28,511 nt of DNA from a virus. The translations under genes were made by a program, and so were the position numbers. Below the pieces are notes generated by a model. It saw only the letters and a list, made by a program, of their open reading frames with translations, searched no databases and had not been told where the DNA came from. Below are positions 2,543 to 9,040 of the stretch, piece by piece (the stretch's first letter is position 1; every line of letters begins with the position of its first letter). The DNA lies in IMG/VR virus record IMGVR_UViG_3300025137_000197, positions 1-28,511 of that record; one strand, given 5' to 3'.

Positions 2543-2642
2543 ACATAGGTGTTCGACCGGTCTATGTGATTAAAGTCTGCGGCCTATCGGCTAATATTTC
2601 CACACATACTCACAAATAATACGAGAATAACCAAGAAAGGCC

Positions 2643-2670
2643 TTGACAAGCCTGTCATTCTGTGTATAAT
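2643..2670 (+). promoter_or_regulatory. Sigma70-type promoter P1
   Basis: A perfect -35 TTGACA (2643-2648), a 16-base spacer and a perfect -10 TATAAT (2665-2670). The predicted start is near 2677. No gene of normal length lies downstream before the second promoter, so the transcript would be the non-coding region. Confidence 0.75.
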
Positions 2671-2789
2671 AGGTTATGTACCTGAGGGGTATAGCTATAG
2701 CAATGATGGGAATACACGCAGTCAGCGCTTCGTTCTAGCTGCTAGAGAGGTATATACAGTACATGTGACAATAATAACCAACTAAACCC

Positions 2790-2818
2790 TTGACATGTAC
2801 GTAGAGTTATGTTACTAT
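2790..2818 (+). promoter_or_regulatory. Sigma70-type promoter P2
   Basis: A perfect -35 TTGACA (2790-2795), a 17-base spacer and -10 TACTAT (2813-2818, four of six consensus bases). The predicted start near 2825 is just before the GC-rich, hairpin-dense part of the non-coding region. Confidence 0.65.
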
Positions 2819-3019
2819 TAAGACATCATATGGTTGAGCAATTGCAAAAGTACCAGATGATTACCACCGAGGCTCTCTCATTAAGGTAGTTTGGTGGCCC
2901 ACGTAAGGCATCTTTTGACCTCCTAGTTATGGTGATGCCTGAAAGTTCTCGATATCAGAGTGTGGGGTGGAAGTTGAGAGTGTCTCGGCCCCTTGTAAGA
3001 CCTTTGTGTCTAAGCATAT

Positions 3020-3058
3020 GGCCCTTTTGATGTTAGTCGTCTAACTATGCGAAGGGCC
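3020..3058 (+). other. Strong two-part hairpin in the non-coding region
   Basis: GGCCCTT (3020-3026) pairs with AAGGGCC (3052-3058). Inside it GTTAG (3032-3036) pairs with CTAAC (3041-3045) around the tetraloop TCGT, leaving an asymmetric internal loop. AGCA and TGCT just outside can add four outer pairs. It is the most stable-looking local structure in the region and is not followed by a U-run, so it does not look like an intrinsic terminator. Confidence 0.55.
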
Positions 3059-3228
3059 GTTGTGCTATATGGTTACCGTAACCCCCACCCTTTAAACTGG
3101 TGTGTTGGCCGTAATCTATAAATGCAATGTAGATTCCCTATACTATTTCACAACCAGTACAACTTGTCACACCCCACCCCCCTTAAAACTAGCGCTAACT
3201 CTTACACTTAAATGCATATAAAAAAAAC

Positions 3229-3257
3229 TTGACAATGAAGAGAATTTCTGGTACAAT
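3229..3257 (+). promoter_or_regulatory. Sigma70-type promoter, cassette copy 1
   Basis: TTGACA (3229-3234), a 17-base spacer and TACAAT (3252-3257), inside a 48-base cassette (3222-3269) that recurs at 3439-3486. It drives the small gene starting at 3289. Confidence 0.8.
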
Positions 3258-3288
3258 AAAATTAATCAATGAAACGAGAGGTTACATA

Positions 3289-3468
3289 ATGAATATACAC
3301 TTATATCAAAGAACTTACGAAGAGAATACTTTAAATCTAGATTTAGAAGATAGACAAGTAGAACATATTTTTCAGACACCTGAAGATGCTGAAAAAGAAA
3401 ATGCAAGATTGAAAAGTCTTGGAGTTAAATTTACTGTTAAAAAACTTGACAACATAAACAATTACTGA
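3289..3468 (+). CDS. Small protein of 59 aa, unknown, probably early
   Basis: The frame is open further upstream, but the earlier TTG at 3229 is the -35 box of a promoter, so ATG 3289 is chosen; GAGAGG (3276-3281) is the ribosome binding site. The product reads MNIHLYQRTYEEN at the start and ends in a lysine-rich strand (VKFTVKKLDNINNY). Its pattern of alternating strand-like segments and one acidic helix (PEDAEKENARLKSLG) suggests a compact alpha/beta mini-protein, but no family is recognised. It stands directly behind a strong sigma70 promoter, and its last codons contain the -35 box of the next promoter. A product made early from host-type transcription is likely. Confidence 0.65.
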   Translation: MNIHLYQRTYEENTLNLDLEDRQVEHIFQTPEDAEKENARLKSLGVKFTVKKLDNINNY

Positions 3469-3474
3469 TACAAT
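3446..3474 (+). promoter_or_regulatory. Sigma70-type promoter, cassette copy 2
   Basis: TTGACA (3446-3451), a 17-base spacer and TACAAT (3469-3474). The -35 box lies inside the last codons of the preceding gene and the -10 box just after its stop. It is the second copy of the 48-base cassette and drives the gene at 3507. Confidence 0.8.
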
Positions 3475-3506
3475 AGAATGAATCAACAATAAGGAGTACA
3501 TACATT

Positions 3507-4112: not shown

Positions 4113-4195
4113 ATATCGATTTCCGAGCGAAGCGTTCTGAGCGTTTTCTTTCTTTGATAGTATTTCTGTTGTTGGTAGTTGTTTTGGTATTATAA
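4109..4195 (+). CDS. Single-helix membrane micro-protein, 28 aa
   Basis: ATG 4109 overlaps the stop of the zinc-finger gene (ATGA). The product has a basic N-terminus (MNIDFRAKRSERF) and a pure hydrophobic tail (LSLIVFLLLVVVLVL), giving one membrane helix with the N-terminus inside by the positive-inside rule. The stop codon lies inside the TATAAATA late-promoter box of the next gene. No family is recognised. The topology and coupling support it, but a short hydrophobic ORF could also arise by chance. Confidence 0.45.
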   Translation: MNIDFRAKRSERFLSLIVFLLLVVVLVL

Positions 4196-5056: not shown

Positions 5057-5713
5057 ATGAAGAACGCTAATATCGATAAGAAAATATCCCTATCCGATTT
5101 AAATCGACCTAAAGATTATATTGAAGTTGCAGAAAGATATCCTTTTGCAATTCGTAATATCTATGATGACGCAATGTCTCATACGATTAAAAGACATTCT
5201 GGTCAAGAAGTTCCTCTACACATTGATTGTGAATTATCCATATTAGAAAAGTGTGGTGTAATTCGAACGTCTAATGTGCAAGCTCGAATGACCGATTGGC
5301 ATTTACATACAGAATTTGAAAGTATCAAATGGATTACTGACCAGGCGTGTCGTCTTGCAGAACAAATTTGTTTAAGACTAGCCCCAACAAAAATGTATTG
5401 CAATGAATCATGGGGTATTCACTACACAGAAAAAACTTCAGCAAAACGCCACAGTCATTTTCCTTATACTTTTGCATTTGGATATTATGTAAAGATGCCA
5501 GAGTATGCACCTATTATCTTTCCTACTGCGAACTATGAATACAATCCTAAAGTAGGTGACCTAATAGTTTTTCCAGGCTTCATACAACATGAAGTGAAAC
5601 CTGTCGAAGGTGAAAGAATTATGATTGCTGGAAATATGTATAACACACAATGGTCATCTCCTAGAAATTTTCAAAACTCTAGCATCAATGATGTCATTAA
5701 ATATAATTCCTAA
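5057..5713 (+). CDS. Putative 2OG-Fe(II) oxygenase
   Basis: The 218-residue protein fits the putative 2OG-Fe(II) oxygenase families common in marine T4-like phages. These use iron, oxygen and 2-oxoglutarate to hydroxylate a substrate. The jelly-roll half starts at SWGIHYTEK (about 118). RHSHFPYTF (131-139) gives candidate iron ligands His132 and His134, and FPGFIQHEVKPVEGERI (172-188) gives the distal His178 and Arg187, the 2-oxoglutarate carboxylate anchor. GDLIVFPG is the conserved strand before the distal His. AAAGGAG lies before the ATG. It sits between an unknown late gene and gp5. Substrates of these phage enzymes are unknown, and virion-protein hydroxylation is one possibility. The HxH in place of the usual HxD is a point of uncertainty. 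Confidence 0.7.
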   Translation: MKNANIDKKISLSDLNRPKDYIEVAERYPFAIRNIYDDAMSHTIKRHSGQEVPLHIDCELSILEKCGVIRTSNVQARMTDWHLHTEFESIKWITDQACRLAEQICLRLAPTKMYCNESWGIHYTEKTSAKRHSHFPYTFAFGYYVKMPEYAPIIFPTANYEYNPKVGDLIVFPGFIQHEVKPVEGERIMIAGNMYNTQWSSPRNFQNSSINDVIKYNS

Positions 5714-7067: not shown

Positions 7068-9040
7068 TGGCAACTGTTGTTAATAAAAAAAGATTAAGAA
7101 TTACCGAACTAGACTTTGACCAAATCAAAGAGAACTTAAAAATATTTTTAAAAGCACAAGACACTTTTAAAGATTATGACTTTGATGGTTCTGGTTTTAA
7201 TATTTTACTTGACACCCTTGCATACAATACTCACTACTTAGGTTTCAACGCTAACATGTTAGCGAATGAAATGTTTTTAGATTCAGCATCATTACGTTCG
7301 TCTGTGGTGTCACATGCTAAAATGTTAGGATACGAAGTTCAATCAGCAAGAGCTGCCAAAGCAATTATTAATGTATCCATTAGAACAAATCAAACATCAA
7401 TTACATTATCAGCAGGTACAAAATTTTCTACAAACTATGATGGCACATCCTACAACTTTGTCACAGCTCAAGACCAGACTTCTACAAAATTTGGTAACTC
7501 TATTAATTTTGATTCGATTGATGTTTACGAAGGAACATTTGTATCAACTCGTTACACAGCTGATACCTCTGACATCGAACAAAGATTTTTACTAAGAGAC
7601 AATCGTGCTGATACCTCAACACTAACTGTTAAAGTTATTAACTCTTCTACCGATTCAACAACAACAACTTTTACAAAGGCAACTGACATTACACAGTTGA
7701 CTAATACATCTACTGTTTATTTTTTACAAGAAGTTGAAGGTGGAAAACATGAAGTTTATTTCGGAGATGGTATTACATCTAAAGCTATTGAAGATGGTAA
7801 TATTGTTTTACTACAATATGTTGTAACTAATAAAACAGAAGCCAATGGCGCATTTCAATTTAGTCCACCAAGTTCTATTGGTGATGAAACAGATGTTACT
7901 ATTTCAACAGTCCTAAGAGCTGAAGGTGGAGCTGAACCAGAATCTTTAAAATCTATTAAAACAAATGCACCACTTGATTATGCTACACAAGGTCGTGCCG
8001 TAACAACCTCTGACTTTGAAGTTCTTACAAAAAGATTATTTCCAAATACACAAGCTGTTTCAGTCTTTGGTGGTGAAGACGGAAGTTATGATTCATCAAC
8101 TGGTGTAAGTTCAACACCTGAATATGGTAAAGTTTTTATTTCAATTAAATCAACAACAGGTTCTGTTTTAACATCAACACAAAAAAATCAATTAGTAACA
8201 GACTTAGCACCATACACAGTAGCATCAATTACACCTGTGATTGTTGACCCAGACACAACTTTTATTCGTTTGGCAGTTAACTATAAATTTGATTCGTCTT
8301 CTACAACAAAAATTTCTTCTGCTCTTGATACAGCAGTTACAACTGCTCTTACAAATTACAACTCAAATACACTTCTACAATTTAACTCACAGTATAGAGC
8401 ATCTGAAGTATCAAGAATTATTGATACAGCTGATACTTCAATACTAAACAATACAACAACTGTAAATTTATCAAAGTTTTTCACACCTACTCAAGGTACT
8501 ACAATCTCTTATTATGTACCCTTTAATAATGCTTTATTTCACCCTGAGGCCGGTTATCTTGCTGTGTCTGGTGGAGTTGTATCATCAACTGGCTTTAAAG
8601 TAAGTACTGATACAGAAACAGAATATTTCTTTGATGATGACGGTAACGGAAATCTAAGAAGATATGCATTTGTCGGAACTGCTCGTTCTTATGCTGATGA
8701 ACAAGCTGGAACAATAGATTATGATACAGGTGCGATTAGTATTAACAATATTAATATTACAGCAGTTTCAGATGTTGATGGTTCAGCATCAACACAAATA
8801 CGATTGCTTGTAACACCAAACTCAAATGACATTGTGCCTGTTCGAAATCAAATATTAGAAATAGATTTTATAAACACAACCATAACAGCCAACTCTGATA
8901 CAGAAACTGCTTCTGGGTCGACCTTTACAACATCAGGTTCAGGTACTACAACATCAACCACTGTTTCTACATCTGGTGGTACAACGAGTGGTACTTCATC
9001 GAGTTCAAGCAGTTCATCGAGTTCAAGCAGTTCTTACTAG
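7067..9040 (+). CDS. 6: Baseplate wedge protein gp6
   Basis: gp6 is the main wedge protein: its dimers form the ring holding the baseplate together, with gp25 and gp7. The 657-residue length matches T4 gp6 (about 660). Recognisable parts are the N-terminal helical region with FDFDQIKENLKIFLKAQ-like sequence (17-33), the conserved NILLDTLAYNTHYLGFNANM (about 45-64), the baseplate J-like middle (DYATQGRAVTTSDFEVLTKRLFP, about 305-328), and C-terminal strands. It ends in a low-complexity tail of T, G and S closing in about a dozen serines, encoded by a tandem DNA repeat. The tail is probably flexible and looks like a lineage-specific extension. The start overlaps the gp25 stop. Confidence 0.92.
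   Translation: MATVVNKKRLRITELDFDQIKENLKIFLKAQDTFKDYDFDGSGFNILLDTLAYNTHYLGFNANMLANEMFLDSASLRSSVVSHAKMLGYEVQSARAAKAIINVSIRTNQTSITLSAGTKFSTNYDGTSYNFVTAQDQTSTKFGNSINFDSIDVYEGTFVSTRYTADTSDIEQRFLLRDNRADTSTLTVKVINSSTDSTTTTFTKATDITQLTNTSTVYFLQEVEGGKHEVYFGDGITSKAIEDGNIVLLQYVVTNKTEANGAFQFSPPSSIGDETDVTISTVLRAEGGAEPESLKSIKTNAPLDYATQGRAVTTSDFEVLTKRLFPNTQAVSVFGGEDGSYDSSTGVSSTPEYGKVFISIKSTTGSVLTSTQKNQLVTDLAPYTVASITPVIVDPDTTFIRLAVNYKFDSSSTTKISSALDTAVTTALTNYNSNTLLQFNSQYRASEVSRIIDTADTSILNNTTTVNLSKFFTPTQGTTISYYVPFNNALFHPEAGYLAVSGGVVSSTGFKVSTDTETEYFFDDDGNGNLRRYAFVGTARSYADEQAGTIDYDTGAISINNINITAVSDVDGSASTQIRLLVTPNSNDIVPVRNQILEIDFINTTITANSDTETASGSTFTTSGSGTTTSTTVSTSGGTTSGTSSSSSSSSSSSSSY
8995..9030 (+). repeat. Tandem 18-base repeat coding the gp6 serine tail
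   Basis: Two exact adjacent copies of an 18-base unit (TTCATCGAGTTCAAGCAG; 8995-9012 and 9013-9030) encode most of the C-terminal serine run of gp6. The mix of TCA, TCG, AGT, AGC codons shows the protein run comes from unit duplication rather than a single slipped codon. Confidence 0.85.

Follow-up and report, generated by a model that had tools for sequence, protein, structure and literature searches.

We analysed a 28.5-kb virus record, IMG/VR record IMGVR_UViG_3300025137_000197 (positions 1-28,511, hereafter the window), whose genes match T4-like tail and baseplate families. Among them are a gp5-like hub lysozyme (5728) and gp25-like (6618), gp6-like (7067) and gp8-like (14053) wedge proteins, each identified by a family match. 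Judged by identity of the gp6-like protein, the closest cultured kin are Pelagibacter phage Mosig (51%), Methylophilales phage Melnitz (49%) and Pelagibacter phage HTVC008M (47%), and the records of all three are labelled Kyanoviridae. Possible auxiliary genes are also present, with matches to the sulfotransferase (332-943) and 2OG-Fe(II) oxygenase (5057-5713) families. A minus-strand ORF of a related locus (L055:6065-7000) is a possible auxiliary metabolic gene; it reads like a TRAP-transporter substrate-binding protein, presumably DctP-like.

The region of interest is a gap between ORFs that end at 2542 and start at 3229, with no ORF of at least 40 aa between them on either strand. A preliminary description had portrayed this gap as non-coding, raised in G+C and dense in hairpins. 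The first two features hold, since no convincing ORF was found and 86 of 180 bases over 2881-3060 are G or C, compared to 34.5% for the whole window. Local hairpins are indeed present, but they are weak evidence alone and the folding energy of the stretch is unremarkable: for 559 nt we obtained a z of -1.28, and 13 of 100 shuffles folded equally well, which is not significant. Therefore, the case had to rest on comparison of homologues. Rfam searches, folding and homologue alignment, all proposed in that description, were carried out, and compensatory changes were found among the homologues.

Homologous regions were gathered through the gp5-like protein, which recruited 42 IMG/VR loci, several of which have a comparable non-coding stretch in the equivalent position. 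When separate portions of the motif served as DNA patterns, the scans returned the same loci and a few new ones, while ORF 1469-2194 as query recovered no relatives. Altogether, about 20 IMG/VR contigs, all from related T4-like marine myoviruses, carry the element, represented by 13 distinct complete core sequences and one truncated copy (L005), and a model search of whole records found one copy per element-bearing contig record. In the relatives the gp5-gp25-gp6 baseplate genes lie 2-4 kb downstream of it, and contigs long enough to show them have the 2OG-oxygenase, gp5, gp25 and gp6 genes downstream of it. As a separate observation, loci L044, L046, L048, L051, L052 and L053 share GGTAATCTATAAATGCAATATAGAT without the core RNA and, where the sequence was read that far, have CCCCCTGTCAAAACTGG about 200 nt beyond it, around a small ORF. 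L052 is a 79-kb contig with no matches to window proteins.

The RNA and the other mapped elements of the gap (2575-3182) lie on the plus strand. The RNA begins with a 5' hairpin, P1 (2825-2861), whose stem has a different sequence in each of nine distinct homologues and nevertheless folds below shuffles in these nine (z -1.7 to -4.65). P1 is followed by a core three-way-junction domain (2867-2988) consisting of P2, J2/3, P3, P4, J4/5, P5 and J3/2. The closing helix P2 (2867-2880 with 2975-2988) has 12-13 bp in some relatives and is broken by small internal loops in others. J2/3 (2881-2897) is a nearly invariant unpaired strand, UUAAGG..GUU(UG)GUGG, with invariant columns. P3 (CCCACR/UGUGGG, 2898-2903 with 2961-2966) encloses the variable, covarying hairpin P4 (2906-2912 with 2934-2940), the joining strand GAAAGUU of J4/5 (2941-2947) and the short, covarying hairpin P5 (2948-2950 with 2958-2960). 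The nearly invariant GUGGAAGU of J3/2 (2967-2974) completes the domain, its sole departure being AUUGAAGU in L058.

The 13 distinct core sequences, trimmed to six P2 bases per side, were aligned by MAFFT without structure. Standard pairs occupy 96.3% of the core alignment cells, and 12 of the 21 core pairs have changes on both sides. The covariation score of 0.658 compares to 0.219 +/- 0.028 in shuffles, none of 500 shuffles scoring as high. Slid pairings scored at most 0.157; this control is biased towards the proposed structure, given the trimming and the derivation of the structure from the same 13 sequences, but the gap is nonetheless very large. P3 is 100% paired yet nearly invariant, and its only support is that it lies between helices that covary. 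The core domains of several homologues fold more stably than shuffles, with z values of -2.3 to -3.2 for five of six and -1.15 for the window. UUAAGG could also pair with a downstream CCUUUA or CCUUAU; these words are conserved, and their pairing does not covary.

A model, R1, was built on 12 sequences, the window among them. Its match to the window (2875-2980, 87.5 bits) is thus to a training sequence, but R1 also found L085 and L086, which were absent from training, with 81.7 bits (E 1.5e-19). In most homologues the core has stops in five or all six frames, and core lengths differ among homologues by 2 nt and by about 24 nt, both of which argue against coding. With a covariation-supported structure and no coding potential, the element fits the general kind of phage structured non-coding RNAs.

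The preliminary description had also proposed a long-range pair, GTGGGGTG with CACCCCAC (2962-2969/3170-3177), that would enclose several local hairpins. Its exact 8-bp match is limited to the window and the near-identical L004, while four of 12 homologues (L011, L055, L058 and L059) have at most 5 bp and no compensating change. The G-rich strand of this pair is already used in the conserved P3 helix. For lack of covariation support, we rejected the pairing.

The known family is narrow, comprising 13 distinct sequences from one phage clade. R1 had no match in the whole genomes of Mosig, Melnitz and HTVC008M, indicating that the closest cultured phages do not carry the element. With the window, L010, L055 and one core sequence as queries, blastn against 50,697 phage records found no homologue, the best match of the core being 28 bases in a helicase gene (E 0.6). 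A three-part pattern run across 84,980 bacterial and archaeal genomes produced eight matches, none of which matches R1.

Two sigma70-type promoters had been described as reading into the gap; both were found, and both are conserved among homologues. Promoter 1 (TTGACA-16-TATAAT, 2643-2670) matches the consensus at 12 of 12 positions and is kept in each of the 11 homologous loci that extend far enough, with a small ORF behind it in the L055-, L058-, L059- and L085-type relatives. Between this promoter and the upstream small ORF lies a conserved short element, GTCTGCGGCCTATCGGC (2575-2591), also present in L009-L015, L054, L057, L058, L062 and L064. Promoter 2 (TTGACA-17-TACTAT, 2790-2818) matches the consensus at 10 of 12 positions. 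Twelve of 12 homologues have it with an exact TTGACA, 17-nt spacing and a -10 box, 62-84 nt upstream of UUAAGG, and P1 lies 3' of it in every homologue with enough upstream sequence. Promoter 2 would be the promoter of the RNA, with a start near 2825. Further downstream, the window has two promoter cassettes about 81% identical to each other (3222-3269 and 3439-3486), each ahead of a small ORF.

Apart from the RNA, the 690 bases contain the two promoters, a C-rich block and a likely late promoter, and some relatives have tRNA genes here as well. A strong extra hairpin, GGCCCUU/AAGGGCC (3020-3058), is limited to the window and L004, and a tRNA-Asp occupies the equivalent interval in L058. The block GTAATCTATAAATGCAAT (3111-3128) resembles a T4-type late promoter and is conserved in all homologues, where GTAATCTATAAA(T/G) lies 3' of the core and is followed by the C-rich block. 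The T4 late promoter is TATAAATA. Elsewhere in the window, TATAAAT sites at 4191, 6589, 14015, 14027, 23155 and 24854, most of them GTATAAATA-like, stand 26-43 nt before annotated starts and are probably T4-type late promoters. Since GTATAAATA-like sites precede structural genes of the window at this distance, it seems probable by analogy that the GTAATCTATAAATGCAAT/GTAATCTATAAA block is a late promoter as well. The block CACACCCCACCCCCC (3168-3182) is rich in C in each of the 12 loci, although they do not all keep its exact complementarity to the core G strand; possibly the block marks the transcript end or a site of Rho loading. No clear terminator was found for the RNA, and read-through into downstream genes is therefore possible.

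What follows the RNA differs among the phages. The window has an ORF at about 3290, L005 and L006 have a MGKLKNHVIE-type ORF, and tRNA-Arg follows in L055, L057, L059 and L061. In L057 a third promoter stands 3' of the core, ahead of the late block. In L062 (700-930) and L064 (about 8090-8310), a second RNA-like element, which has a sigma70 promoter of its own, was observed 3' of the core; its arms, GCCUUGUCUGGGCC..CGAUGCCCUUAUGUAAUUUGGCAAGG against GCCGUGUCUGGGCC..GACACGG, change together, and it has no Rfam match.

It appears probable to us that the region encodes an independently transcribed, trans-acting, non-coding structured RNA of about 165 nt (roughly 2825-2990) with an invariant pocket. 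This reading draws on the homology across relatives, the base-pair covariation, the conserved promoters and position, and the lack of coding. A host sigma70 polymerase would transcribe the RNA from promoter 2. The RNA is probably made early in infection, because neighbouring small genes share this promoter type and structural genes use GTATAAATA sites. It would then act in trans. The nearly invariant strands UUAAGG..GUU..GUGG, GAAAGUU and GUGGAAGU around the invariant P3 form a candidate binding pocket, for which the variable stems may serve as scaffold only. The partner of this pocket, whether protein, ligand or RNA, would necessarily be common to all these hosts. Because the RNA lies among tRNA genes and small early genes, it may contribute to host takeover or to translation during infection.

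A cis-acting leader or riboswitch-like element controlling downstream genes is an unlikely but reasonable alternative. The invariant bases around the three-way junction look like an aptamer, no strong terminator separates the RNA from the downstream genes, and glutamine riboswitches are used by related marine phages (PMC9004378). However, there is no common downstream gene to control; tRNA genes, extra promoters or the second RNA-like element intervene, and a promoter at 3229 serves the next ORF of the window. Such variation of the downstream gene misfits a riboswitch and fits an independent RNA. Moreover, no Rfam riboswitch, glutamine included, was matched even at E 10 in three homologues.

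More speculatively, and with a rather small chance of being correct, the pocket (UUAAGG..GUGG, GAAAGUU and GUGGAAGU around CCCACA/UGUGGG) may be a new catalytic or ligand-binding core in a free-standing RNA of marine T4-like phages. We regard it as improbable that the RNA is a self-cleaving ribozyme, or a processing platform by which neighbouring phage tRNAs are trimmed or presented. The near-invariant unpaired strands do resemble a catalytic core, and tRNA genes lie inside or adjoin the locus in L005, L009-type loci, L055, L057, L058, L059 and L061. Yet no tRNA lies near the copies of the window, L004, L006, L011, L062 and L064 in the sequence examined, and no known ribozyme family matches. 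The position of the tRNA also differs between L005 and L058; their tRNA-Asp genes occupy two different points of the locus, between the core and the late block in L058 (623-699) and between the late and C-rich blocks in L005 (167-241).

The region might serve control at the DNA level only, as an origin or as a stack of early and late promoters, with the hairpins a by-product; the two or three sigma70-type promoters and the late-promoter-like block conserved within the same 600 bp would fit this. We consider it very improbable, since the compensatory changes in three helices and the stem-preserving changes of P1 require that a folded single strand be under selection. The large ornate RNA akin to GOLLD or ROOL that the preliminary description had suggested is scarcely tenable: GOLLD is likewise phage-borne and close to tRNA genes, its locus at times including a tRNA (PMC12286853), but Rfam finds neither family here, the long-range pair fails, and the covarying structure of only about 165 nt consists of one hairpin and one three-way-junction domain of about 120 nt.

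The preliminary description is better served by its other halves. Its candidate new phage RNA stands, given the homologues and compensatory changes, although not in the large style, and the smaller regulatory RNA that it also mentioned is the better alternative, regulation remaining putative. To our knowledge, few structured phage RNAs show strong covariation, and we know of no function for GOLLD, ROOL or T4 rnaC and rnaD. The present RNA is small enough for synthesis, probing and crystallisation, and the clade that carries it is related to phages infecting the most abundant bacteria of the ocean. Its clearly marked candidate binding site makes the question of phage-RNA function testable by pull-down.

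As far as sequence comparison can tell, this is a new phage RNA that belongs to no known RNA family. Rfam release 15, searched with the window and homologues by gathering score and in E-value mode, returned nothing above chance except tRNA genes, and a search of the literature available to us found no described RNA of such kind in these phages. GOLLD and ROOL resemble it as structured non-coding phage RNAs often near or containing tRNA genes, but they are far larger (many GOLLD exceed 800 nt), differ in structure and give no covariance-model match. The two-piece (permuted) tmRNA of pelagimyophages and Melnitz is likewise a structured RNA of the same phage group; however, ARAGORN detected no tRNA or tmRNA in the window, and neither ARAGORN nor Rfam detected a tmRNA in the homologous loci. 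The glutamine (glnA/downstream-peptide) riboswitches of marine bacteria and phages occur in pelagimyophage relatives, and a GGAAGU word beside a helix is, we assume, reminiscent of them, whereas the RNA described here has its own promoter, no fixed downstream gene and no match among the Rfam riboswitches. Finally, although R1 finds no match in the corresponding T4 stretch (L087), rnaC and rnaD of T4 (species 1 and 2 stable RNAs; 139 and 119 nt as annotated) resemble it as small RNAs beside the tRNA cluster of a T4-like phage.
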